A DNA stretch of 64,000 bases from Sporomusaceae bacterium (GTDB lineage: Bacteria > Bacillota > Negativicutes > UBA1444): the NCBI GenBank assembly GCA_018434355.1, contig JAHDPL010000003.1, positions 62,001 through 126,000 on the forward strand. Direction: 5' to 3'. The notes below the pieces were generated by a model that saw nothing but the letters and a program-made list of their open reading frames with translations, did no database searches and was not told the origin of the DNA. The number at the start of each line of letters is the position of its first letter. The stretch's first letter is position 1. This document shows positions 35,466 through 50,391 of this stretch, in pieces. The position numbers were made by a program, and so were the translations under genes.

Positions 35466-37754
35466 ATGCGCAGGCATTTGGTCATTGGCGGCATCGTCCA
35501 GGGCGTCGGGTTTCGTCCATTCGTCTACCGACTGGCGACGCGACATGGGCTGACCGGATGGGTAAACAACGCGACTGACGGCGTTCATATCGAGGTCGAG
35601 GGGACAGCGACCGAGATTGATGCATTTATCCGCAATCTCCGGCAGGAAAAGCCGCAACAGGCGGAAATCTATTCGTTGACTGCGTATGAGATTCCTGATC
35701 GTCACGAGAAGCTGTTCATTATTGCCGAAAGCGAGGCGCCTTCGGCAGCAGTGCCGTTTGTTTCCGCCGATATTGCGACCTGTGAGGACTGTCGCTGCGA
35801 GATCCGGGATCCGGCTGACCGACGGTATCAATATCCATTCACCAATTGCACGAATTGCGGCCCCCGTTATACGATCATCCGGCAGACGCCTTATGATCGG
35901 CAGTCGACGACGATGGATGCGTTTCCGATGTGCGAGGCTTGCAGGAGTGAATTTGACGATCCTGCCAACCGGCGGTTCCACGCCCAACCCAACGCCTGTC
36001 CGGTGTGCGGGCCAAAGTATTATCTGGTGAACCGGCAGGGAGCTGCGTTGCCTTTGGAAAGCGGACAGAATGTTTTCGTCCAAACACGGAAGTTGCTGCA
36101 GTCGGGAAAGATAGTGACCATCAAGGGACTGGGCGGCTTTCATCTGGCCTGTGATGCAAAGAATGAAACAGCAGTGGCGACGCTGCGTCAGCGAAAAATC
36201 CGTGAAGACAAGCCGTTTGCCGTCATGGCCGGTTCGCTGGCAGCGGTCCGGCAATTTTGCAATGTATCGGCGGCTGAGCAGAAACTCTTGGCAGGTACGG
36301 TACGGCCGATTCTGCTGCTTGACAAGGCCGAACCCTATGATTTGGCCGACAGCGTCGCGCCAGGAAATCCGCGAATCGGCGTGATGCTGCCCTATACGCC
36401 GCTGCACGAGATTTTGCTTGCGGATGAGGATATCTGGGTGATGACCAGCGGCAATACCAGCGATGAACCGATAGCCTACAGCAACGAAGACGCCTTGGAA
36501 CGTTTAAATTCGATAGCCGACTTTTTTCTGCTGCACAACCGCGATATCCATCGCCGCGCCGATGATTCGGTAGTGCGACTGATCGGTGAGCAGCCTTATC
36601 TGTTGCGACGCAGCCGGGGCTATACACCGCTGCCGATCCGGTTGGCGAAACCAACAGTTCGGCTGCTGGCCTGCGGCGGCGAACTAAAGAACACGTTCTG
36701 TCTGACCCATGGGCAACAGGCGTTTCTCAGCGCCCATATCGGCGACCTGGAGAACCTGTCAACCTATCAATACTATACAGATTCCATCCAATTTTACAAA
36801 TCCCTTTTTAATATCACGCCGGAAGTCGTGGCTTACGACCTGCATCCGGAGTATCTGGCGACAAAATACGCCAAAGAACTGCCGTTGTCGCAGATCGGCG
36901 TGCAACATCACCATGCCCATATCGTTTCGGTCATGGCCGAACACGGCCTGGATGAACCGGTAATCGGCGTGGCCTTCGACGGAACCGGCTACGGTTCTGA
37001 CGGCGCGATCTGGGGCGGGGAGTTTCTGATCGCTGATTGCTTCGATTTTCGTCGGGTTGCCCATTGCAGCTACTTGCCGCTGCCAGGCGGTACGCAGGCG
37101 ATCAAGCAGCCCTGGCGGCTTGCAGCCTGGATTTTGTCGGAACTGTTCGGTGAACGGATGGAGACGCTGCCGCTTCGATTTGTCCGTTCGCTGCCGCCGG
37201 AATGGCCGACAGTGCTCAAAGCGGCAGAAAAACGCATTAACACCCCGCTTACGTCGAGCGCCGGTCGACTATTTGATGCTGCTTCGGCTTTGCTTGGCAT
37301 TCGTGGTTCCATCCATTATGAGGGACAGGCGGCTGTGGAACTGGAACTGGCGGCAGGCAACAGAACAGGCAGATTGTTGCCGTTTGCGATTCGCGAAGGG
37401 GCTCCCGGGCAACTCGATTTTTTGCCGACGTTCGCGGTCATGAGCGAATTGTTGGAACGCGGCGATGATCCGGCTGATTTGGCGGCGTCTTTTCATAATA
37501 CAGTCGCTGCGGCGATTGTCACGACAGTCCGTCAGATAAAAAAAGAAACCGCGCTCAGAAAAGTTGCGCTAAGCGGCGGTGTGTTTCAAAATCTGCGGCT
37601 GCTGACTGCCGTCGAACAACAACTGAAGGCAGAACAGTTCCAGGTATACCGGCATTGTCGGGTTCCGACCAATGACGGCGGCCTGTCGTTGGGTCAGGCA
37701 GTTATTGCTAGCGAGCGGTACACTCGAGGCCCCAGTCGTGCAACTGGCGGATGA
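35466..37754 (+). CDS. hypF: carbamoyltransferase HypF
   Basis: A 762-residue enzyme that makes the carbamoyl precursor of the cyanide ligands. Domain order is complete: acylphosphatase (residues 1-90, GIVQGVGFRPFVYRLA), two zinc fingers (about 105-180: CEDCRCEI, CTNCGPRY, CEACRSEF, CPVCGPKY), a YrdC-like domain (about 200-380, KIREDKPFAVM) and a Kae1-like carbamoyltransferase domain with HHHAHIVSVMAEH and GVAFDGTGYGSDG. GGGAGG precedes the ATG. It lies alone on the plus strand between hypA and the hydrogenase operon and overlaps the 3' end of the protease gene by 47 bases tail to tail. Confidence 0.96.
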   Translation: MRRHLVIGGIVQGVGFRPFVYRLATRHGLTGWVNNATDGVHIEVEGTATEIDAFIRNLRQEKPQQAEIYSLTAYEIPDRHEKLFIIAESEAPSAAVPFVSADIATCEDCRCEIRDPADRRYQYPFTNCTNCGPRYTIIRQTPYDRQSTTMDAFPMCEACRSEFDDPANRRFHAQPNACPVCGPKYYLVNRQGAALPLESGQNVFVQTRKLLQSGKIVTIKGLGGFHLACDAKNETAVATLRQRKIREDKPFAVMAGSLAAVRQFCNVSAAEQKLLAGTVRPILLLDKAEPYDLADSVAPGNPRIGVMLPYTPLHEILLADEDIWVMTSGNTSDEPIAYSNEDALERLNSIADFFLLHNRDIHRRADDSVVRLIGEQPYLLRRSRGYTPLPIRLAKPTVRLLACGGELKNTFCLTHGQQAFLSAHIGDLENLSTYQYYTDSIQFYKSLFNITPEVVAYDLHPEYLATKYAKELPLSQIGVQHHHAHIVSVMAEHGLDEPVIGVAFDGTGYGSDGAIWGGEFLIADCFDFRRVAHCSYLPLPGGTQAIKQPWRLAAWILSELFGERMETLPLRFVRSLPPEWPTVLKAAEKRINTPLTSSAGRLFDAASALLGIRGSIHYEGQAAVELELAAGNRTGRLLPFAIREGAPGQLDFLPTFAVMSELLERGDDPADLAASFHNTVAAAIVTTVRQIKKETALRKVALSGGVFQNLRLLTAVEQQLKAEQFQVYRHCRVPTNDGGLSLGQAVIASERYTRGPSRATGG

Positions 37755-38184
37755 CGCTAGTCACTGCTTCGTCAATGCGTGAGGCGACCAAGGGCGTCAA
37801 GTCCAGACCTATTTCCAGACTTTGCGGTACGACACCGATCACTACGATTTCACTGATCGGCTTTTCCATTACCACCAATGACGCCAATACTTCCTGAATC
37901 CCCATTTCATGCAATGAGACTTTTTCCTGGAAATAGAGCCGGACGTCATCGCCCTGAATGATGCGAAAAGAACCAGGTTCCGGCCCGTGGATCGCGTCAA
38001 TCAGAATCAGGCGCTCGGCTCCGTCCAGAAAGCGCATCAGTTCGATGCCGAGCGTACCGCCGTCGAGAACGTCTACAGCATCGGGAAAGCGGAAGCGCTG
38101 TGACAGCGCTTCCGCTACTCTTACGCCGAACCCTTCGTCAGACAATAAGATGTTGCCAACTCCTAAAACTACCGTTTTTGCCAC
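37708..38184 (-). CDS. hyaD: hydrogenase maturation endopeptidase (HyaD/HybD family)
   Basis: A 158-residue nickel-dependent protease that removes the C-terminal peptide of the large subunit after nickel insertion. GVGNILLSDEGFGV carries the first nickel-binding acidic residue (Glu or Asp), DGGTLGIELM the second, and HEMGIQEVL the histidine. GTG 38184 is the start: GGAGG lies ten bases upstream and the family start KTVVLGVGN follows. It overlaps the cytochrome b stop by one base. The 3' end overlaps hypF. Confidence 0.94.
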   Translation of the reverse strand: MAKTVVLGVGNILLSDEGFGVRVAEALSQRFRFPDAVDVLDGGTLGIELMRFLDGAERLILIDAIHGPEPGSFRIIQGDDVRLYFQEKVSLHEMGIQEVLASLVVMEKPISEIVVIGVVPQSLEIGLDLTPLVASRIDEAVTSVIRQLHDWGLECTAR

Positions 38185-38891
38185 TATTTGAGGTCCTCCG
38201 CATCCGCCGGTTTGCCGGGAAGATACTTGATGCCCGAGAAGATGCTGGAAATTTCGCCGTCGCCATGCATCATGTCCGAACGATAGGCGAAATAGGTGTG
38301 GAACGTCAGGAACAGGGGGAAGAACCAAGCGGCATAGTTGTGCACGACATGCACATTATACTCGTTGCCGAGCAGACTAATCACCGGTGAGAAAAATTTT
38401 GCCGTCCAGCTGGCGGGGTTGATCATGCCGTACATGGCAAAGCCGGTGGCCATTAGAACAAATGTTACGATATACCAAATCAGATAAGTGGTTCGGGCCA
38501 GTGAGTTGCGCAAATACGGCTGATGGTCGCTTTTCAGGAACAGGTAATGTTGAAGCACCTCACTAAGGCCTGTCCAGTAGAGTTTCGTCCAGAACTTCGG
38601 CAACAACCGGTCTCCCTTGTACATCACCCAGCCGTAAATCCGCAGAATGAACGAGGCGACCAGAACATAGGCCCAGAAGAAATGCCAGAACCGGATCGTT
38701 TCCATCGACATCAGGTTGCCGACGGATATCGTCGGATCGACGCCGATCGAACCATGAAAGAACGGATTGGCAATGTAGCGGCCCGTCAAAAACAACATCA
38801 GGACCGCCGCCGCCATGATCCAGTGGAACAGCCGCAGGAACGGACTGAAGATGTAGATGCCGTCAACCCGCTTGTTTTTCAACTGCCACAC
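38184..38891 (-). CDS. hyaC: Ni/Fe-hydrogenase b-type cytochrome subunit
   Basis: A 235-residue membrane anchor with four to five helices and the histidines that bind heme b: FHWIMAAAVLML, RFWHFFWAYVLV, and VHNYAAWFFPLFLTFHTYFAYR. It takes electrons from the periplasmic hydrogenase dimer and passes them to menaquinone. Start GTG 38891 has a GGGGGG tract upstream; TTG 38882 is also possible. It overlaps the end of the large subunit gene by 13 bases. Confidence 0.93.
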   Translation of the reverse strand: MWQLKNKRVDGIYIFSPFLRLFHWIMAAAVLMLFLTGRYIANPFFHGSIGVDPTISVGNLMSMETIRFWHFFWAYVLVASFILRIYGWVMYKGDRLLPKFWTKLYWTGLSEVLQHYLFLKSDHQPYLRNSLARTTYLIWYIVTFVLMATGFAMYGMINPASWTAKFFSPVISLLGNEYNVHVVHNYAAWFFPLFLTFHTYFAYRSDMMHGDGEISSIFSGIKYLPGKPADAEDLK

Positions 38892-40795
38892 CCCCCGCAG
38901 GCATTGATATAGGGGTCGCTGTTAATGACTGCTTTTTTGTTGCCTTCCGTGTCGTACAGGTGGGTGGCGCAGGCGATGCAAGGATCGAAAGAATGGATGA
39001 CCCGCAACACCTCGAGCGGTTTGTCGGCAACCTTGATCTTGGTTTCGATCATGCTGGACTCGTAAGCGCCACTGCCGGCCTTGGAATCGCGCGGACAGGC
39101 ATTCCAGGTGCTCGGCACAACTGCTTGGTAATTGGCGGTCAGTCCGTTCTTGATCTGGATCCAGTGCCCGAGCGCGCCGCGCGGCGCTTCGTGCAGACCG
39201 ACTCCCTTGGCTTCTTTCGGCCAACTGGCCGGCTCGAACTTGCTCATGTTGGCTGTGGCGGTATCGCCATTACGAATGTTCTTGATCATCTTATCAAAGA
39301 AATACTTGTTAATGTAAGCCATCACTTGGGCTTCCAGACCGCGGCAGGCCGTTCGGCCGACAGTCGAGCACATCCAGACATGGGCCGGTGCGCCAAGCAC
39401 TTTCGATACACCGTCGATTTGGTCGACGATCATTTTTTCCGCCCAAGTCGGTTGCATCAAGCCTTGCTTGACTTTTACATAGGTGACGATATAGCGGGCC
39501 AAAGGTCCGACCTCGGCCATCTTGCCACGCCACATCGGAGTCTTGATCCAGGAATACTTGCCTTTTTCATCAAGATATTTCCAATTCGTTTTCGTGCCTT
39601 CCTTGGGACCGGTGTAATTGGGTGCGGTGACGCCGGCCAGCGGATGCAAGGCTTTGCCGGCCTGCGGGTAACTGTACCAGGAATGCTCGATGTTTTCGGT
39701 GATGATTTCTGGGTCGACATAGTCTTTGCCTTCCAGGTTGGTGAATTTGGCGGCCATCACCCCGGCGGCGAAGTTTTCCACCACTCCCTGGCAGCGCAGT
39801 AGGAGGCGTTTGTGAAAATCGCCGTTGGCAATGCCGGTATAGCTGTCTTCCGGGTAATCTCCGTAGCCGAGCACGCATTTTCCGGCCAGGCCGCCACCGT
39901 CCACCATTTTGTGTTTGGTGACGTAGATGTCGCCGATTGCCAGCAGGTCCGGCAGGTAGAAATAATTGACGGCGGAAATGCCGAGATTGACTGCGACATC
40001 GACGACTCCCAGCCGTGCGGTGTTAATCGGGGCATTCATGTCATTCATCGAAATGGCGCAGGGCATGCCGCCAACAATATACTGCGGATGGGGATTTTTC
40101 CCTCCATAGACGACATGTCCGGTCACCAGTTCGCGTTGACGGTCCAGCATCGTCAGATAGTGGGTTACTGCCATTAAATGTACTTCCGGCGGCAACAACG
40201 AATAGTCGGGGTGATCCCACCAATGGGCGGCGAAGATGCCTAGCTGACCGCTTTCGACCAATGCCTTGACTTTGGCCTGGATCGCTTTGAAATAGGCAGG
40301 GGTCGCGCGGGGGAATTCCTTGGGATAGGCATCGGTATTGAAGTCGAACGGACCGGACAGGCCCAGGTCATATTTTGCCAGGATCGCATTTTGCAGCGAT
40401 GCGGTTGCGCCGGGATCGGCCTTGAGCGCCTCGACCGGGCTGACCCAGTCCAGAGCGTGCAGGTGATAGAAGTGGATCAGGTGGTCCTGCACCGCCAGCG
40501 ATGAAGCCATCTGATTGCGGATATAGTTGGCGTTTTTGGGGATTTCGATGCCCAGCGCATCTTCGACGGTGCGAACCGAGGCCAGGGCGTGGGTTGTCGT
40601 ACATACGCCGCAGAACCGCTGGGTAAAGGCCCAGGCGTCACGCGGGTCGCGATCTTTCAGGATGATTTCGATGCCCCGCCAGGCCGTACCGCTGGAGAGG
40701 GCGTCCTGCACCTTTCCGGTGGCTTCGTCCACGGTGACTTCCACCCGCAGATGGCCTTCGATCCGAGTTACAGGGTCGACTACTACTCGTTTCAT
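38879..40795 (-). CDS. hyaB: [NiFe] hydrogenase large subunit, group 1
   Basis: A 638-residue catalytic subunit. The N-terminal nickel-binding motif RFCGVCTTTHALASVR and the C-terminal DPCIACATH are intact, so all four active-site cysteines are present. The protease cuts after the His of the last motif; the removed peptide here is 26 residues and ends CGGCGS, longer than the roughly 15 residues of E. coli HyaB. GGGAGG precedes the ATG. With the Tat-exported small subunit and cytochrome b it makes a respiratory H2-uptake enzyme facing the periplasm. Confidence 0.96.
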   Translation of the reverse strand: MKRVVVDPVTRIEGHLRVEVTVDEATGKVQDALSSGTAWRGIEIILKDRDPRDAWAFTQRFCGVCTTTHALASVRTVEDALGIEIPKNANYIRNQMASSLAVQDHLIHFYHLHALDWVSPVEALKADPGATASLQNAILAKYDLGLSGPFDFNTDAYPKEFPRATPAYFKAIQAKVKALVESGQLGIFAAHWWDHPDYSLLPPEVHLMAVTHYLTMLDRQRELVTGHVVYGGKNPHPQYIVGGMPCAISMNDMNAPINTARLGVVDVAVNLGISAVNYFYLPDLLAIGDIYVTKHKMVDGGGLAGKCVLGYGDYPEDSYTGIANGDFHKRLLLRCQGVVENFAAGVMAAKFTNLEGKDYVDPEIITENIEHSWYSYPQAGKALHPLAGVTAPNYTGPKEGTKTNWKYLDEKGKYSWIKTPMWRGKMAEVGPLARYIVTYVKVKQGLMQPTWAEKMIVDQIDGVSKVLGAPAHVWMCSTVGRTACRGLEAQVMAYINKYFFDKMIKNIRNGDTATANMSKFEPASWPKEAKGVGLHEAPRGALGHWIQIKNGLTANYQAVVPSTWNACPRDSKAGSGAYESSMIETKIKVADKPLEVLRVIHSFDPCIACATHLYDTEGNKKAVINSDPYINACGGCGS

Positions 40796-40818
40796 CAGTG
40801 CTCGTTCCTCCCTCTCAG

Positions 40819-41913
40819 CTATTCTTCGTCATGTTCGGATTCGTTTTTCGCGTGTCTTGCCTTTTGAACCGAAGAAATTACGGCGTGGACCGTTACTCCG
40901 GCCATCGCGGCGACTGTCAATCCGGCGCCGATCTTGTCTGCGTTGGTCAGCGTGTTCGGCAGAACGACATTAGGCAGCCGCTCATGGAAGGGACCGTTGT
41001 CCCAGAACCCGTCGCTGCCGCAAGCAAAGCAGGGCGACCCGGACTGGATCGGATAAGAAAGACCGTTCCACCAGCGCAGGTTGCCACAGGCGTTATAGGC
41101 TTCCGGACCTCGACAGCCCAGCTTGTAAAGACACCAACCGGCCTTGGAGCCTGCATCGTCGAACCGTTCGGCAAACATTCCGGCGTCGAAGAAAGAGCGA
41201 CGATAACAGGTATCGTGAATCCGGTTGCCATAGAATTGTTTCGGTCGTCCCTGCGCATCAAGCGGCGGGATTTGGCCGAACAGGGCCAGATGCATCACCA
41301 CTCCGGTCATGACTTCCGGGATTGGCGGACAGCCCGGAACTTTGATGATCGGTTTACCGCTGATCACCTTGCTGACGGAAACGGAGCCGGTCGGATTCGG
41401 TTTGGCGGCTTGCACGCCGCCCCAGGCAGCGCAGGAACCGTACTCGATAATCGCGGCGGCATGTTTGGCGACTTCCTTCAGCACATCCACGAACGGCTTG
41501 CCGCCGACCATGCAGGAAATTCCCTGATCAGCCAGCGGGACGCCGCCTTCCACCGCCAGGATGAATTTGCCGTCGTATTTTTTGATCACGGTTTCCAGAT
41601 GTTTTTCAAACGGTTCGCCGGCGGCGGCGGCCAGAGTGTCGGAGTATTCGAGCGAAATCATGTTCAGGACCAGGTCTGAGGCCAATGGCGACTGCGAGCG
41701 GATGAACGCCTCGTCGCAGCCGGTACATTCGTGACCATGCAACCAAACCACGACAGGTAGAGGCTGTTTGGTCGCGGCCTCGACGACCTTTTTGCGATCG
41801 GTGAGCGGAAGCCCCATCATGGCGGTTAAAGCTGTACAGGTTTTAAGAAAGGTGCGTCGGCTGAGACCCCGTTTGGAGAATGAATCCCACATCGTCATGC
41901 GCGTTTCCATCAT
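40819..41913 (-). CDS. hyaA: [NiFe] hydrogenase small subunit with Tat signal
   Basis: A 364-residue electron-transfer subunit. The N-terminus has a twin-arginine signal LSRRTFLKTC followed by a hydrophobic stretch, so the folded dimer is exported with the large subunit. WLHGHECTGCDEAF starts the proximal [4Fe-4S] site, GSCAAWGG and PGCPP continue it; DTCYRR, CLYKLGCRGP and CFACGSDGFWD bind the distal clusters. A C-terminal membrane helix (about 325-345) precedes a charged tail and anchors it beside the cytochrome. GGGGAGGGT lies directly before two ATG codons. First gene of the hya operon. Confidence 0.96.
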   Translation of the reverse strand: MMETRMTMWDSFSKRGLSRRTFLKTCTALTAMMGLPLTDRKKVVEAATKQPLPVVVWLHGHECTGCDEAFIRSQSPLASDLVLNMISLEYSDTLAAAAGEPFEKHLETVIKKYDGKFILAVEGGVPLADQGISCMVGGKPFVDVLKEVAKHAAAIIEYGSCAAWGGVQAAKPNPTGSVSVSKVISGKPIIKVPGCPPIPEVMTGVVMHLALFGQIPPLDAQGRPKQFYGNRIHDTCYRRSFFDAGMFAERFDDAGSKAGWCLYKLGCRGPEAYNACGNLRWWNGLSYPIQSGSPCFACGSDGFWDNGPFHERLPNVVLPNTLTNADKIGAGLTVAAMAGVTVHAVISSVQKARHAKNESEHDEE

Positions 41914-44746: not shown

Positions 44747-46189
44747 ATGAGTAAACACCTACCGCCGTCCCTACGGGAGTTATGCCTGCAATACACTAAT
44801 TTGGCAATGGAGGACGTCTGCCAGCTGGAAACGATGGCTGGACAGATTTCTTTCGTTTCTGAACTGACCCAGACAGACATCTTTATCGACGCACTAACCA
44901 GTAATGGTGTCGATGCGATTGTGTTGGCATGGGCCCCACCACGTCAAAACTCGCTTTACCGGCATAGTGTGGTTGGCGAGTTGGCCTACGCAACCCGCGA
45001 ACCGGCTGTTTACCAGGTTTTTTCGGCCGGAGAAATGGTGCGCAATGTAAGGGGAGTTAGTCAGGAAGGGGTTCCGATTGCCCAAACGGTGGTGCCGCTG
45101 CGAAATGTCGATCGCCGGATTATCGGTGTGTTAATCATGGAAAAAGATATCACGGCAGAAGTTCGTCAGGCGGAGCAGGTAGAGTTTCTAAGCCAGACGG
45201 CAGAGCGGCTCAGTAGCACGTTGATGTCGTTTTCGATGACAAACTCGACCTGGGAAGACTGGCTTGGCAACGGGATATTCGTGCTGAACTTAAAAGGCGA
45301 AATTACTTATGCCAACCGAAACGCCGCCAGAATGTACCGAATGGCTCGCGGTTGTGAACCGCTCAGCAGCGATCTGATGGCTATTTTCGGCTACCAGTCC
45401 GTGCAGAGCTTGCTGGAGGCAATGAAAAATCCGATGGAATTCAGCTTTGGGCAACAAGTTTTTCTGTTCCAGGCGCATCCGTTGGTGACATATGGCGACC
45501 TTAGCGGTTGTGTGGTTTCGTTGCAAGATGTGACGGAATTGCGGCGCAAGGAAAAACAGTTGAACATGCAGAGCGCAATAATTCGGGAAATTCATCACCG
45601 TGTCAAAAATAATCTGCAAAATGTAGTATCCCTTTTGAGGCTGCAGATGCATCGTTCACAGTCGCCGGCAGTGCAAGACGAGTTTTCCGCCTGTATAAAC
45701 CGGGTGTTTTCGATTACTCAGGTGCATGACATGTTTGCGCAACAGAATTGGGATTCCATCGATTTATTGGAATTGACGGAAGGGATTTTAACGAAACTTG
45801 TGGAATCCTCTGTTTTGCCGGATCAAGAAATCAAGACCGCCGTGCAGGGTCAGTCAGTGCGAATTCCCGCCTCACAGGCGGTGCCAATGGCTTTGGTGAT
45901 CAATGAACTGGTGACCAATAGCCTGAAGCATGGCATTGGCCATGCCAGCTATGGTGAAATAAGCATTTTGGTCGAAGAATCAGCGGGGATTGTGCATATC
46001 ATGGTCGCAGATAGCGGTGATAAGTTGGTGCTGCCGCACAATCGTGGTAAAAGTGGCCATCTGGGACTTTATATTGTCAACTTGTTAATTTGCGATCAAT
46101 TAGAAGGCAGTTTTCGACTGGAGCGACAAGGCGGATCCACGGTCGCCAAAGTATCATTTGCGCTTTGCAATGCGGAGGAAAACGGATGA
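44747..46189 (+). CDS. eutW: sensor histidine kinase of the ethanolamine two-component system
   Basis: A 480-residue cytosolic kinase. Residues 1-160 form an N-terminal sensor domain like that of EutW/PdtaS kinases; a PAS domain follows (about 170-265, NGIFVLNLKGEITYANRNAARMY); then a HisKA_2 dimerisation domain with REIHHRVKNNLQ, phosphoacceptor His283, and a HATPase with ALVINELVTNSLKHG and GHLGLYIV. In Firmicutes EutW senses ethanolamine and phosphorylates EutV. The ribosome binding site is weak. Its stop overlaps the eutV start by four bases (ATGA). It lies just upstream of the eut genes, supporting the assignment. Confidence 0.88.
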   Translation: MSKHLPPSLRELCLQYTNLAMEDVCQLETMAGQISFVSELTQTDIFIDALTSNGVDAIVLAWAPPRQNSLYRHSVVGELAYATREPAVYQVFSAGEMVRNVRGVSQEGVPIAQTVVPLRNVDRRIIGVLIMEKDITAEVRQAEQVEFLSQTAERLSSTLMSFSMTNSTWEDWLGNGIFVLNLKGEITYANRNAARMYRMARGCEPLSSDLMAIFGYQSVQSLLEAMKNPMEFSFGQQVFLFQAHPLVTYGDLSGCVVSLQDVTELRRKEKQLNMQSAIIREIHHRVKNNLQNVVSLLRLQMHRSQSPAVQDEFSACINRVFSITQVHDMFAQQNWDSIDLLELTEGILTKLVESSVLPDQEIKTAVQGQSVRIPASQAVPMALVINELVTNSLKHGIGHASYGEISILVEESAGIVHIMVADSGDKLVLPHNRGKSGHLGLYIVNLLICDQLEGSFRLERQGGSTVAKVSFALCNAEENG

Positions 46190-46761
46190 AATCGTTATCG
46201 TTGCTGATTGCTGAAGATGAAGTGCTGACAAGGGCTGATATAAGAGCCATGGTGGAAAGAGCCGGACACATTGTCTGCGGTGAATGCGGCAATGGAAAGC
46301 GCGCCATTGAATTAGCACGCCAAATGTTGCCGGACATGGCGATCCTTGACGTGATGATGCCTGAATTGGATGGGATTGAAACGGCGCGGGCCCTATATTC
46401 GCTCAATATACCTGTGGTGATGTTGACGGCATATAGTCAGCCCAACATTGTGAAGCGGGCGGAAAATGTTTATGTCTGCGGCTATTTGGTCAAGCCGGTG
46501 TCAGAACAGAATTTGATGGCTACACTGCGAATTGCCTATGCGCGGTGGAGAGACATGCAATCTATGCGCCAGGAACTGGCCGAAACGAAAGAACTACTGA
46601 AGCAACAAAAAACAATCGCCCGAGCGAAAGCCTTATTTGCCAATGCACAGTGTATATCCGAGCATGCGGCCCATCAACAGATGATTCAGGATGCAATGCA
46701 GCACCGGATTACCCTGGTTGAATTGTCGCGTCAGATTATCAGCGCACGCGCCGCAAAATAA
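46186..46761 (+). CDS. eutV: ANTAR-domain response regulator (antiterminator)
   Basis: A 191-residue regulator. The receiver domain (1-120) has the acidic pocket AEDE and the phosphoacceptor Asp55 in AILDVMMPELDG. A coiled-coil linker leads to a C-terminal ANTAR domain (about 140-191, AKALFANAQCISEHAAHQQM and LVELSRQI) that binds RNA hairpins and prevents termination. AGGAAAACGG precedes the ATG, which overlaps the eutW stop. Its expected targets are the two leaders at 46805 and 48881. Confidence 0.92.
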   Translation: MKSLSLLIAEDEVLTRADIRAMVERAGHIVCGECGNGKRAIELARQMLPDMAILDVMMPELDGIETARALYSLNIPVVMLTAYSQPNIVKRAENVYVCGYLVKPVSEQNLMATLRIAYARWRDMQSMRQELAETKELLKQQKTIARAKALFANAQCISEHAAHQQMIQDAMQHRITLVELSRQIISARAAK

Positions 46762-46804: not shown

Positions 46805-46837
46805 TATTTCAACAATGGAATATGGGCAGTAGCGCCC
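46805..46837 (+). ncRNA. ANTAR-type hairpin pair in the cobT leader
   Basis: Hairpin P1 is TATTTC-AACAAT-GGAATA (46805-46822) and hairpin P2 GGGC-AGTAGC-GCCC (46824-46837), one base apart, both with hexanucleotide loops beginning with A. The 3' arm of P2 is also the first part of the terminator at 46835, so P2 and the terminator exclude each other. This is the EutV antitermination layout. Loop position 4 is A in both, not the G of the consensus I recall from other species. A near-copy of this block precedes eat. Confidence 0.75.
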
Positions 46838-46881
46838 TTTAATGTCACTACGTAACCGTAGTGGCATTAAAGGGTTTATTT
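46835..46881 (+). terminator. regulated terminator upstream of cobT
   Basis: An 18-base-pair stem, CCCTTTAATG..CACTACG (46835-46852) with its complement at 46857-46874 (one G-U pair), a four-base loop, and TTTATTTTTG. It lies between eutV and the cobT start and shares bases with hairpin P2. Confidence 0.88.
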
Positions 46882-46898
46882 TTGGGGGAGGTCTCAAA

Positions 46899-47954
46899 TT
46901 GGAAAAAATCGTTGCCACAATTCAAAAAATCAAACCGTTAAGCGAATTAGCCATGAAGGAAGCGCAGCTTCGCTTGGATGGTTTGACAAAGCCGGTGGGA
47001 AGTTTGGCTGTACTGGAAAGCATGGCCAGGCAGTTTGCCGGAGTCGTAGGAAACCCCAGGCCGGCGCTGCCGGAAAAAGCCATTGTGTTGATGGCGGCTG
47101 ACCATGGAGTGGCGAGTGAGGGTGTCAGTGCTTTTCCACCGGAAGTGACCGAGCAAATGGTGTACAATTTTGTCCGCGGCGGCGCCGGGATCAATGTGTT
47201 GGCCCGTCATGCCAATGCGCGGCTGATTTTGGTTGATGTTGGCGTGAAAAACCAACTTTCGCCGAGTGTTCCGATTCGACACTGCAAAGTAAAACACGGA
47301 ACAGACAATATGCGTTTGGGTCCGGCCATGAGCAAACAGGAAGCGATTGCTGCGATTGGCGTAGGGATTGACATCGCCAATGAATTGGCGGACGAAGGAA
47401 TCCGCGTGGTAGCGCTGGGTGAAATGGGGATTGGCAATACGACAGCCAGTTCGGCGATTACAAGTGTCTTGACAGGTCGGCCGGTATCGCCGGTAGTTGG
47501 TAAAGGAACCGGGATTGCGCCGGATTTTGTAAATCATAAGATTCAGGTGATTGCCGAGGCGATTGCCTGCAACAACCCCAACCCCAAAGACGCTCTAGAC
47601 GTATTGGCAAAAGTCGGCGGCCTGGAAATTGCCGGATTGGCCGGGGTGGTGCTGGGAGCAGCCTCGCGCGGCATGCTGGTGATGTTGGATGGATTTATTG
47701 CATCGGCTGCTGTGTTGGCGGCTTACCGGATCAGTGTTGCGGTTCGGCCCTATCTGATGGCTTCTCATTTGTCTGAAGAACCTGGGCATGCGGCTATTCT
47801 TGAAGTATTGGGAGTGAAACCCTGTCTTCATTTGAATATGAGATTGGGGGAAGGGACCGGGGCTGCGTTGGGGATGACGCTGCTTGACGCCGCAGTAAAA
47901 ATTATCAATGAAATGGCGACTTTTGAAGAGGCGCAGGTGGCGCCCTCCTGTTAA
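46899..47954 (+). CDS. cobT: nicotinate-nucleotide--dimethylbenzimidazole phosphoribosyltransferase
   Basis: A 351-residue enzyme that activates 5,6-dimethylbenzimidazole to alpha-ribazole phosphate, the lower ligand of cobalamin. VYNFVRGGAGINVLAR, EMGIGNTTASSA (with the conserved nucleotide loop) and the catalytic glutamate in the C-terminal MRLGEGTGAA are all present. The start is TTG 46899 with GGGGGAGG upstream; the frame reaches back to 46842 inside the terminator. It is the first gene of the antiterminated transcript, so it serves cobalamin supply for ethanolamine ammonia-lyase. Confidence 0.95.
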   Translation: MEKIVATIQKIKPLSELAMKEAQLRLDGLTKPVGSLAVLESMARQFAGVVGNPRPALPEKAIVLMAADHGVASEGVSAFPPEVTEQMVYNFVRGGAGINVLARHANARLILVDVGVKNQLSPSVPIRHCKVKHGTDNMRLGPAMSKQEAIAAIGVGIDIANELADEGIRVVALGEMGIGNTTASSAITSVLTGRPVSPVVGKGTGIAPDFVNHKIQVIAEAIACNNPNPKDALDVLAKVGGLEIAGLAGVVLGAASRGMLVMLDGFIASAAVLAAYRISVAVRPYLMASHLSEEPGHAAILEVLGVKPCLHLNMRLGEGTGAALGMTLLDAAVKIINEMATFEEAQVAPSC

Positions 47955-47998
47955 GTTATTGGCAATCAAATTCGAAGAAATGATGGCGGTGAAGCGTG

Positions 47999-48340
47999 AT
48001 GGCAACGGAAAAACAAAGGGTCATTCAGGAATATGTTCCCGGCAAGCAGGTGACAATGGCCCATATCATTCCTAATCCTCAGGGCGATTTGCATGAACGG
48101 CTGGGACTCGACGGCAAAGGGGCGATCGGCATCATGACGATTACTCCCAGCGAAGCGGCGATCATTGCGGCGGATGCCGCAACAAAAGCAGGCAATATTG
48201 AAATCGGCTTTGTCGATCGGTTTACCGGCTCATTGGTAGTTACCGGCGATGTTGCCGATGTGGAGGCTGCAGTTCGTGCGGCCGTCAATACGCTGGTTAG
48301 CGTGCTTGGTTTTACCGCGACGGAAGTGACCCGCAGTTGA
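47999..48340 (+). CDS. eutS: EutS-type microcompartment shell protein
   Basis: A 113-residue circularly permuted BMC-H protein. It starts with the extension [21 protein letters not shown] typical of EutS/PduU, followed by the BMC core [38 protein letters not shown] and a final [15 protein letters not shown]. Quoted parts are consecutive pieces of the fold. EutS makes bent hexamers that help shape the shell. It lies 45 bases after cobT and overlaps eutP by four bases. Confidence 0.92.
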
Positions 48341-48786
48341 AGAACAAAATCTTGTTGATTGGCGGGGTTGGCGCAGGAAAGACGACGTTGAAACAACGGT
48401 TGCTTCAGGAGTCTTTAACATATCGCAAGACCCAGGTAATTGATTTCAAGGGTTTGTTTATCGACTGTCCCGGTGAATACATTCAAATTCCCACCTATTA
48501 CCGGGTGTTGATCGATGCTAGCCATCGGGTGTCGGAAGTGTGGGCTTTGCAGGATGCGACCAACAAACGGTCGCCATATCCGCCGAAATTCGCCAATGTA
48601 TTCAATAAAAAGACTGTAGTGGGCATTGTTACAAAGCTGGACCGCGAGGACGCCGACACATCGGTTGCTGAAAGATATTTGCAGCAGGCAGGATTCGCCG
48701 ACCCTTTGCACATCATTTCCGCCAAAGAAGGGATTGGTTTGGAACCGTTGATTTTGCGTCTGGAAGCGTTGATGAAAAAAGATTGA
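48337..48786 (+). CDS. eutP: EutP/PduV family GTPase-like protein
   Basis: A 149-residue small GTPase-fold protein. P-loop [10 protein letters not shown] at residues 9-18 and FIDCPGEY (DxPG-like switch) are clear, with VTKLDRED as the guanine motif. EutP of Salmonella was reported to act as acetate kinase; PduV associates with the shell. TTG start overlaps the end of eutS. A regulated terminator follows 122 bases on. Confidence 0.9.
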
Positions 48787-48880: not shown

Positions 48881-48955
48881 TCCGGGAACAATGAAATACG
48901 GGCAACAACGCCCTTTACAACCGCCGGCATTGCCGGGCGGTTGTAAAGGGCGTTT
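48881..48955 (+). ncRNA. second ANTAR-type leader and terminator, upstream of eat
   Basis: The block AACAATGAAATACGGGC (48887-48902 region) matches the one before cobT with a few changes. P2 is GGGC-AACAAC-GCCC (48899-48912). Its 3' arm GCCC begins a 16-base-pair terminator, GCCCTTTACAACCGCC (48909-48924) with its complement at 48935-48950, followed by GTTTCTT. P1 is not a clean hexaloop here: the 5' arm TTTTC is separated from AACAAT by six extra bases. It should allow eat and the following genes to be expressed only with active EutV. Confidence 0.72.
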
Positions 48956-49020: not shown

Positions 49021-50391
49021 ATGAGCAATCCGGCAGACACGAACAAGATTCCGGCCGCAAACGGCGCGCCCCATTTGCAGAGAGTTCTCAAACCGATTCA
49101 CCTATGGGCTCTGGCAGTGGGATTGGTTATCTCGGGCAACTACTTCGGCTGGAGTTATGGGTTCGCCGCCGGCGGTCCGATCGGTCTCGCCATCGCCCTG
49201 GTTCCCGTCACCATTTTTTATGTAACCTTTATTCTATCCTATTCGGAATTGGCCACCGCCATTCCCCATGCCGGAGGACCTTCGGCCTACGCACGTCGCG
49301 CGCTCGGAAAATTCTGGGGCTATATGAATGGCGTCAGTTGTCTGATTGAGTTTGTCTTCGCGCCTCCAGCCATCGCCTTGGCAGTTGGTGGATACATCCA
49401 CAACATGATGCCGGCGATCCCCCAAATGCAAGCGACGATAGTTGCCTTCCTGTTCTTTATTTTAGTCAACTACTGGGGCATGAAAACCTCGGCAATGGTC
49501 GAACTGGTGGTCACCGTGGTGGCGCTGGTCGGCCTGGTGATTTACTGGATCTTGGCTGTACCGCACTTTGAAATGTCCCGTTTGATGGCGCAACCGTTGC
49601 TGCCAAACGGATTTGAAGGGGTTATGGCTGCCGTACCCTTTGCCATCTGGTTCTATCTGGCGATCGAGGGCGGCGCTATGGCGGCTGAGGAATGCGTCAA
49701 TCCGCAAAAAGATATTTCCACAGGGTTCCTGACTGGCATGGCGACATTGATGGTCATGGCATTTTTGACCCTGTTTCTGACAGCAGGTATCGCAGACTAT
49801 AAAACCGTCCAGGCGGTTGACTTCCCGCTGCCGATGGCGCTGAGTGAAGCTGGAGTCGGTGCGGTCGGCGTCGCTTTGGTCAACTTTATCGGCTTGTTTG
49901 GCTTGATTGCCTCCTTGCATGGAATTATCGTCGGCTATTCGCGCCAGACTTACGCAATGGCTCGTACCGGATATTTGCCGAAATTCCTGGCCTATGTTCA
50001 TCCCAAACATCATACTCCCGTCTGGGCGCTGATTTTGCCGGGCCTGGTCGGTCTGGGCGCAGCACTGACAGGATTGACAGACATCGTCATTACGATTTCC
50101 GTATTTGGCTCTGTTGCGATGTATCTGGTCAGTTTGGTCAGTTTGTTTGTGCTTCGTTCCAAGGAACCGGACCTCAAGCGGCCATTCAAAGTATGGTATC
50201 CGGTGGTTCCGGCAATCAGCTTTGTGATCGCTCTGTTTTGCTTAGTCAGCTTGTTTATGGCTTCTGCCGAAGCGTTGAAGTGGGTTGCGTTGGTTTACGG
50301 AGTCGCCATTGCCTATTATTTCATCTGGGGCAACAAGAATATCCGGCCGTTTGAAGAGGAGTTCGGCGTGCTGGATGAATTGGATGCATAA
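49021..50391 (+). CDS. eat: ethanolamine permease
   Basis: A 456-residue APC-family transporter with twelve membrane helices. The start LKPIHLWALAVGLVISGNYF and GGPSAYARRALGKFWGYMNG match the Eat-type ethanolamine permeases of actinobacteria and proteobacteria, which replace EutH in many species. AAAGGAGG precedes the ATG. It is the first gene after the second leader. Confidence 0.92.
   Translation: MSNPADTNKIPAANGAPHLQRVLKPIHLWALAVGLVISGNYFGWSYGFAAGGPIGLAIALVPVTIFYVTFILSYSELATAIPHAGGPSAYARRALGKFWGYMNGVSCLIEFVFAPPAIALAVGGYIHNMMPAIPQMQATIVAFLFFILVNYWGMKTSAMVELVVTVVALVGLVIYWILAVPHFEMSRLMAQPLLPNGFEGVMAAVPFAIWFYLAIEGGAMAAEECVNPQKDISTGFLTGMATLMVMAFLTLFLTAGIADYKTVQAVDFPLPMALSEAGVGAVGVALVNFIGLFGLIASLHGIIVGYSRQTYAMARTGYLPKFLAYVHPKHHTPVWALILPGLVGLGAALTGLTDIVITISVFGSVAMYLVSLVSLFVLRSKEPDLKRPFKVWYPVVPAISFVIALFCLVSLFMASAEALKWVALVYGVAIAYYFIWGNKNIRPFEEEFGVLDELDA

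Follow-up and report, generated by a model that had tools for sequence, protein, structure and literature searches.

Putative A4-loop attenuators with a conserved upstream box accompany EutV in ethanolamine operons of Negativicutes and Desulfitobacteriia and suggest a second ANTAR recognition code

The ethanolamine operon in the 64,000-nucleotide stretch of Sporomusaceae DNA analyzed here (the window) is probably controlled by two EutV/ANTAR-type attenuators, and comparison with dozens of relatives suggests that these leaders belong to a second recognition code, in which a variant loop letter is accompanied by a conserved box. The operon is of the microcompartment type, as judged from Pfam assignments and gene order, with genes for a permease, shell proteins, EutA, EutB, EutC, and an aldehyde dehydrogenase located 3' of cobT, eutS, and eutP (Table 1). 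An ANTAR/EutV-type attenuator with cobT, eutS, and eutP behind it had been proposed in the initial annotation of this DNA, and the sequence evidence upholds that proposal. There are no matches to Rfam families of any kind across the window, and therefore no cobalamin riboswitch in it. Frames at 35466-41913, 5' of the eut genes, resemble by eye those for hydrogenase maturation proteins and nickel-iron hydrogenase subunits.

Table 1. Regulatory genes, leaders, and first structural genes of the ethanolamine operon, in window coordinates. His163 and Gln141 of the window EutV correspond to positions 164 and 142 of E. faecalis EutV.
Feature	Position	Strand	Evidence
EutW-like sensor kinase, PdtaS-type	44747..46189	+	Pfam GAF_PdtaS, PAS, HisKA_2, HATPase
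EutV-like response regulator with ANTAR domain	46186..46761	+	Pfam, alignment, fold; His163, Gln141
Leader 1 P1, unconserved in relatives	46805..46822	+	Folding, site comparison
Leader 1 conserved box ACAATGGAATA	46812..46822	+	Site comparison
Leader 1 P2 hexaloop hairpin, loop AGUAGC (A1, A4)	46824..46837	+	Folding, structure scan
Leader 1 intrinsic terminator with U tract	46834..46882	+	Folding, terminator search
cobT (TTG start codon), the first gene after leader 1	46899..47954	+	Pfam PF02277, 443 bits
eutS-like shell gene	47996..48340	+	Pfam BMC
eutP-like gene	48337..48786	+	Pfam PduV-EutP
Leader 2 conserved box ACAATGAAATA	48888..48898	+	Site comparison
Leader 2 P2 hexaloop hairpin, loop AACAAC (A1, A4)	48900..48913	+	Folding, structure scan
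Leader 2 terminator	48910..48951	+	Folding, structure scan
Permease gene behind leader 2	49021..50391	+	Pfam AA_permease_2

Leader 1 lies directly after a gene for an ANTAR response regulator, as had been claimed, the product of the upstream gene carrying receiver and ANTAR (PF03861) domains that score 79.9 and 31.6 bits against Pfam cut-offs of 30.2 and 27.3. Its P2 hairpin consists of GGGC (46824-46827), the loop AGUAGC (46828-46833), and GCCC (46834-46837), and the terminator stem (46834-46875) begins in the GCCC arm, comprises 19 pairs, is followed by TTATTTTTGG, and has a centroid energy of -30.2 kcal/mol. The earlier description of a second hairpin sharing its 3' arm with the terminator is borne out, with 19 pairs in place of the 18 bp given there. 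The fold of the 91-nt leader beats 200 of 200 shuffles (z -6.9); the small hairpins P1 and P2 alone are no better than shuffles (z -1.7). Leader 2 (48888-48951), absent from the initial annotation, is a second copy of the attenuator between eutP and the permease gene, with its P2 formed by GGGC-AACAAC-GCCC and a terminator of its own. When both strands of the 64 kb were scanned for a hexaloop with A at position 1 (A1) whose stem is no shorter than 4 bp, with no fewer than 3 GC pairs, and overlaps with a terminator no shorter than 15 bp, exactly two matches were returned, at 46828 and 48904, and the same structure was found 0 times in 20 dinucleotide-shuffled windows. A simple hexaloop pattern, by comparison, was discarded as nondiscriminating, as it gave 103 matches at one mismatch in the organism's own genome and 67 in the control. 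Two canonical features of ANTAR target RNAs, a P2 overlapping an intrinsic terminator and A1, are thus present in both leaders, but the canonical G at loop position 4 (G4) is replaced by A (A4) in both. The A-N-N-G consensus named in the initial annotation is the published one (PMC3369931; PMC8934654), and the loops AACAAU and AGUAGC of leader 1 had rightly been read as A-N-N-A.

The first of these two loops belongs to P1, which was drawn as UAUUUC (46805-46810), AACAAU (46811-46816), and GGAAUA (46817-46822). A possible pair between A46811 and U46816 leads the energy model to favor a stem of 7 bp capped by the tetraloop ACAA, and of the two adjacent hexaloops originally described, that of P2 stands while that of P1 is only one reading. 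Nor is a tandem P1 conserved as part of the element. Among 30 nonredundant sites with the box described below, at least 3 pairs of P1 can form at 9 in the register of the window, at 8 in the next register, and at 12 in either, against expectations of 2.6 and 1.9 when the 5' side is shuffled, and P1 cannot form at the second leader of the window. P1 as an obligatory hairpin was rejected on these grounds, since it is commoner than chance in a minority of the 30 sites and absent from the majority; given that excess, a degenerate P1 may be important in some leaders. What is kept across the A4 class is ACAAnGGAATA, located a few nucleotides 5' of P2. From this comparison of sites, the conserved upstream part of the A4 leaders is a linear, predicted mostly unpaired box, which would be a candidate recognition element.

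Orthologs of the window EutV, 48-71% identical, are encoded in 22 other genomes, so that 23 of 380 Negativicutes genomes carry one, this genome included. The loci read comprised 22 stretches from these genomes, two further loci (L063, from a sister species and overlapping with L143 on one contig, and L064, from a Desulfosporosinus MAG), and the window, amounting to 24 distinct loci, in which a structure-based scan found 53 P2-type sites after filtering. In this Negativicutes-led set, the sites with the box comprise 21 with A4 and 3 with T4, the latter all from the sister species and one of them counted twice, and the sites without it comprise 27 with G4 and 2 with A4. The sister species has T4 in both of its box sites, at L063 3394 and 8672 (AATTGA and AATTGG), the second of which is the same site as L143 3557. 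Of the two box-free A4 exceptions, the site at L149 3595 does have a box, in a shortened form missed by the pattern, and the site at L154 1043 looks spurious. With near-duplicates removed, the table of box against A4 reads 18:0 versus 2:18 (Fisher p 6e-9), the box pattern and the site filter having been chosen after viewing this first data set. For that reason, a loop-blind scan was repeated in Desulfitobacteriia, where it returned 18 sites in 18 EutV-like loci, many of them from close relatives; all 14 box sites have A4, one of them with GGAACA in its box, and all four box-free sites have G4. Among the 30 nonredundant box sites, A1 is found at 29, and position 4 is A at 28 and T at 2. The closing pair of P2 is C-G in 19 of 20 A4 sites, pairing in the P2 of A4 leaders is kept through two-sided changes at 2 of 4 pairs, and the terminator of G4 leaders covaries, with 10 of 13 pairs changed on both sides. 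In nearly all fetched loci, the leaders lie directly 3' of eutV or 5' of the permease gene or eutW. On this sequence comparison, A1-N-N-A4 loops are characteristic, at the level of the family, of the EutV loci in Negativicutes and Desulfitobacteriia. The A4 loop noted earlier as setting this EutV apart therefore does hold for it, but not as a peculiarity, as A4 is clade-wide.

A covariance-model search of the leader had been proposed as a check on the attenuator, and such a model of the A4-box element (R1, built from 20 sequences) tracks EutV in both classes. In Negativicutes, R1 is found in 20 of the 23 genomes with EutV, mostly at training loci, and in 0 of the 357 genomes without it, which lie outside the training set. 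In Desulfitobacteriia (82 genomes, one of them used in R1 training, with EutV orthologs 53-58% identical), it is found in 16 of 17 genomes with EutV and 0 of 65 others (Fisher p 4e-16); the only EutV genome missed, G397, carries a G4 site without the box. Another ANTAR response regulator (E at most 1e-25) is encoded in 231 of the 357 EutV-free Negativicutes genomes, and some ANTAR protein in 52 of the 65 Desulfitobacteriia genomes lacking this EutV; because most EutV-free genomes have another ANTAR protein, the box goes with this EutV and not with ANTAR proteins generally. A site in G080, outside the R1 training set, precedes a permease gene and is followed by a G4 site ~115 nt further on. In G391, G394, and G400 (L249, L250, and L251), an A4-box leader precedes a methyl-accepting chemotaxis gene away from eutV, the assignment having been made by Pfam for L249, which suggests that a chemoreceptor is under EutV control in these genomes.

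The protein itself also departs from the one whose RNA contacts are described. An AlphaFold2 model of the window EutV (pLDDT 91.5) has as its best two PDB matches EutV alone and the EutV-RNA complex (6wsh and 6ww6), over 189 columns with TM 0.80-0.81 and with Z 22 in a fold comparison limited to listed families. In the published account of the EutV-RNA crystal, G4 flips out and stacks on Tyr164, with hydrogen bonds from Arg142, Lys149, and Glu160 (PMC8934654), and a change of G4 to A is described as lowering induction in E. faecalis (PMC3369931). At these positions (142, 149, 160, and 164), the window EutV has Gln, Lys, Glu, and His, and since two of the four G4-reading residues are changed, the earlier suggestion that this EutV may read a different loop gains support, although the retention of Lys149 and Glu160, both G4 contacts in E. 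faecalis, speaks against it. His164 is present in 41 of 41 aligned EutV rows (40 distinct genomes) and Gln142 in 39 of 41, while position 164 is Tyr in one outgroup row and Phe in the other, each with Arg at 142. A second ANTAR protein found throughout Negativicutes has Arg142, Lys149, Glu160, and Tyr or Phe at 164 in nine of nine cases checked, and among 28 further Desulfitobacteriia ANTAR proteins that aligned (30 tried), 25 have Arg142, position 164 is aromatic in 23, and the Gln-His pair occurs in none. The His164 clade forms one branch (40 rows, 98% SH-aLRT), and with a single origin, the link between residues and loop counts as one event and not as repeated covariation. Positions 160 and 175 were considered as an A4/G4 code within the clade and rejected, as the post-eutV leaders of the supposed G4 lineages also have A4.

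The G4 sites have a distribution of their own. R2, a model built from 14 G4 leader sequences and itself favoring G4, has matches in 73 of the 380 Negativicutes genomes. EutV is absent from 53 of the 73, and 48 of those 53 encode the second ANTAR protein (lists compared by hand). The 13 strongest EutV-free R2 loci have G4 in 13 of 13 cases and A1 in 11, and the genes behind them encode ammonium transporters in five (one by Pfam, four by eye), CT_C_D-domain (pxpB-type) proteins in three (one checked), a NifH-type protein in one, an Nramp-like protein in one (under the Pfam cut-off), and chemoreceptor-like proteins in two, with one gene left unassigned. Such sites fit the nitrogen ANTAR regulons already published, as those are described in PMC3369931. 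The single R2 match in the organism's own genome (L230 ~1265-1345, C16) is an A1/G4 attenuator before a glutamine synthetase gene, preceded by a TTGACA-TAAAAT promoter and likely a target of that genome's second ANTAR protein (L003 7619-8203), and we infer from these sequences that two loop codes are in use in one cell. Every site in the window operon is of the A4 kind, and in 12 cases non-microcompartment ethanolamine operons have a G4 site 99-203 nt after an A4-box site; if the two are on one transcript, such a series would demand both signals. Two explanations of the G4 sites were set aside. Promoter proximity was dropped for eut loci, as the best upstream promoter-like scores are alike for A4 (8.1) and G4 (8.4), and the presence of a second ANTAR protein does not discriminate among Desulfitobacteriia, where each of the 17 genomes with EutV encodes 2-3 ANTAR proteins whether or not a G4 site was seen.

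From its position, cobT would be the first gene under the control of leader 1. It lies directly behind a leader in the window and in G312, and in the sister species both a leader and eutH precede it; in G082, G147, and G148, a divergent cobT homolog is found after eutC. Elsewhere in the organism's own genome, two cobT homologs overlap in tandem (L231 2872-3912 and 3905-4750, C18), both matching PF02277. Two adjacent cobT homologs are the feature of ArsAB found at this second locus, and the pair is accordingly described here as ArsAB-like, a designation made from sequence. Ethanolamine ammonia-lyase is a base-on enzyme. ArsAB is reported to activate phenolic lower ligands and to be nearly confined to Negativicutes (PMC6461909), and phenolyl cobamides are described as having no bond between lower ligand and cobalt, with cobamides unable to form this bond being inactive in base-on enzymes (PMC6759758). 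As phenolyl cobamides would be unfit for such enzymes, a CobT switched on by ethanolamine could, judging from the position of its gene, supply the fitting cofactor.

By default, the nascent RNA would fold into the strong terminators after eutV and before the permease and enzyme genes. Upon activation of the EutW-like kinase, presumably by ethanolamine, phosphorylated EutV would bind the P2 hexaloop and probably also the upstream ACAAnGGAATA box; the bound P2 would keep the GCCC arm, the terminator would be blocked, and RNA polymerase would read on. The sequences themselves show the leaders, their conservation, their phyletic association with this EutV clade, and the residue changes; we infer EutV binding, the ethanolamine signal, readthrough, and the role of the box in recognition. 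A broader reading, to which we give somewhat less than even confidence, joins three parts. EutV with His164 and Gln142 would read the box-preceded A1-N-N-A4 loop, and the ANTAR protein with Tyr or Phe at 164 and Arg142 would read the G4 loop of a nitrogen regulon; the A4-box and G4 sites of non-microcompartment operons would together act as an AND gate at the RNA level, with ethanolamine and the need for nitrogen as its inputs; and the A4 code would turn on a dedicated CobT beside the ArsAB-like homologs, remodeling the cobamide lower ligand.

The main alternative, possible and on balance doubtful, is that EutV of the His164 clade tolerates any purine at position 4, so that A4 and G4 sites alike, those in eut loci included, would be its targets and no second code would be involved. 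In G145, G304, and G397, which have this EutV, the stretches searched showed G4 sites without a box and no others, so that G4 may also be read by this EutV. Within ethanolamine loci, G4 sites are confined to EutV lineages without Glu160 (L256, L258, L266, L267, and, in Negativicutes, the non-microcompartment loci), as if its loss loosened reading, although this link comes down to two independent pairs with support on the tree and falls short of significance. Against purine tolerance, the box and A4 co-occur without exception among clear sites, and many genomes with no EutV at all have G4 sites before nitrogen genes. It is very unlikely that A4 instead reflects terminator strength, with loop adenines pairing with the U tract and the box as an A-rich part of the same effect. 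By eye, the loop can pair with the tail in L148 and L064, and GGAAUA is complementary to UAUUUU in several tails, but in neither window leader does the tail pair with the loop over its full length, the terminators of G4 leaders are equally strong without A4 or box, and the 357 and 65 genomes lacking this EutV have terminators without the element. Finally, ordinary terminators after eutV and eutP, with P2 as a by-product and separate promoters for the genes behind, would account for two strong terminators with U tracts but are most improbable, as each precedes same-strand operon genes with no clear promoter between either leader and the gene behind it, and the hexaloop and box are kept across two classes along with this EutV.

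If EutV of the His164 clade does read the A4-box element, then a changed RNA letter and changed contact residues stand beside proteins keeping the old pair, which makes these bacteria a natural experiment on RNA-binding specificity and reduces the specificity question to a few residues and one loop base. The choice of lower ligand for B12-type cofactors could also be linked to the use of ethanolamine in bacteria whose cobamides are otherwise phenolyl. An A1/G4 loop is common to EutV, NasR, and AmiR, the ANTAR systems that have been well studied. Published ANTAR search models are described as seeded with G4 (PMC3369931), so an A4 class could be missed by them. In the open-licence literature, supplements aside, we found no publication joining ethanolamine, ANTAR, and Negativicutes, nor one joining ethanolamine, EutV, and cobT, which is weak evidence of novelty.

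Several known ANTAR systems invite comparison. Actinobacterial ANTAR RNAs also vary in their loops, with more than 50% A1/G4, but the search that found them required dual stem-loops, and its account has no A4-plus-box class in the passages available (PMC8164766). The ANTAR attenuators of nitrogen genes described in PMC3369931 resemble in theme the G4 elements that precede amtB, nifH-like, and glutamine synthetase genes in the genomes analyzed here, and these nitrogen-type elements differ from the window leaders in having a G4 loop and no box. The nasF leader of Klebsiella oxytoca, read by NasR, has loops with a C-G closing pair, like the A4 sites here, but NasR is described as a one-component nitrate sensor that selects A1 and G4 in tandem hairpins (PMC7496416). 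The closest likeness is to EutV/EutW antitermination of the E. faecalis eut genes (PMC3369931; PMC8934654). As portrayed there, that system shares with the window a kinase and an ANTAR regulator encoded beside eut genes, several attenuators within the operon, a P2 sharing the terminator arm, A1, and the fold of the protein. It differs in that loop position 4 is G and not A, P1 stands in place of a linear box, and Tyr164, Arg142, and Arg168 of its EutV are His, Gln, and Ile here; cobT as the first gene controlled, judging from its position, is a further difference. Because they lack both G4 and a conserved P1, the window leaders are kept out of the canonical ANTAR target RNA motif and are classed, from their sequence features, as a putative variant of EutV attenuation.
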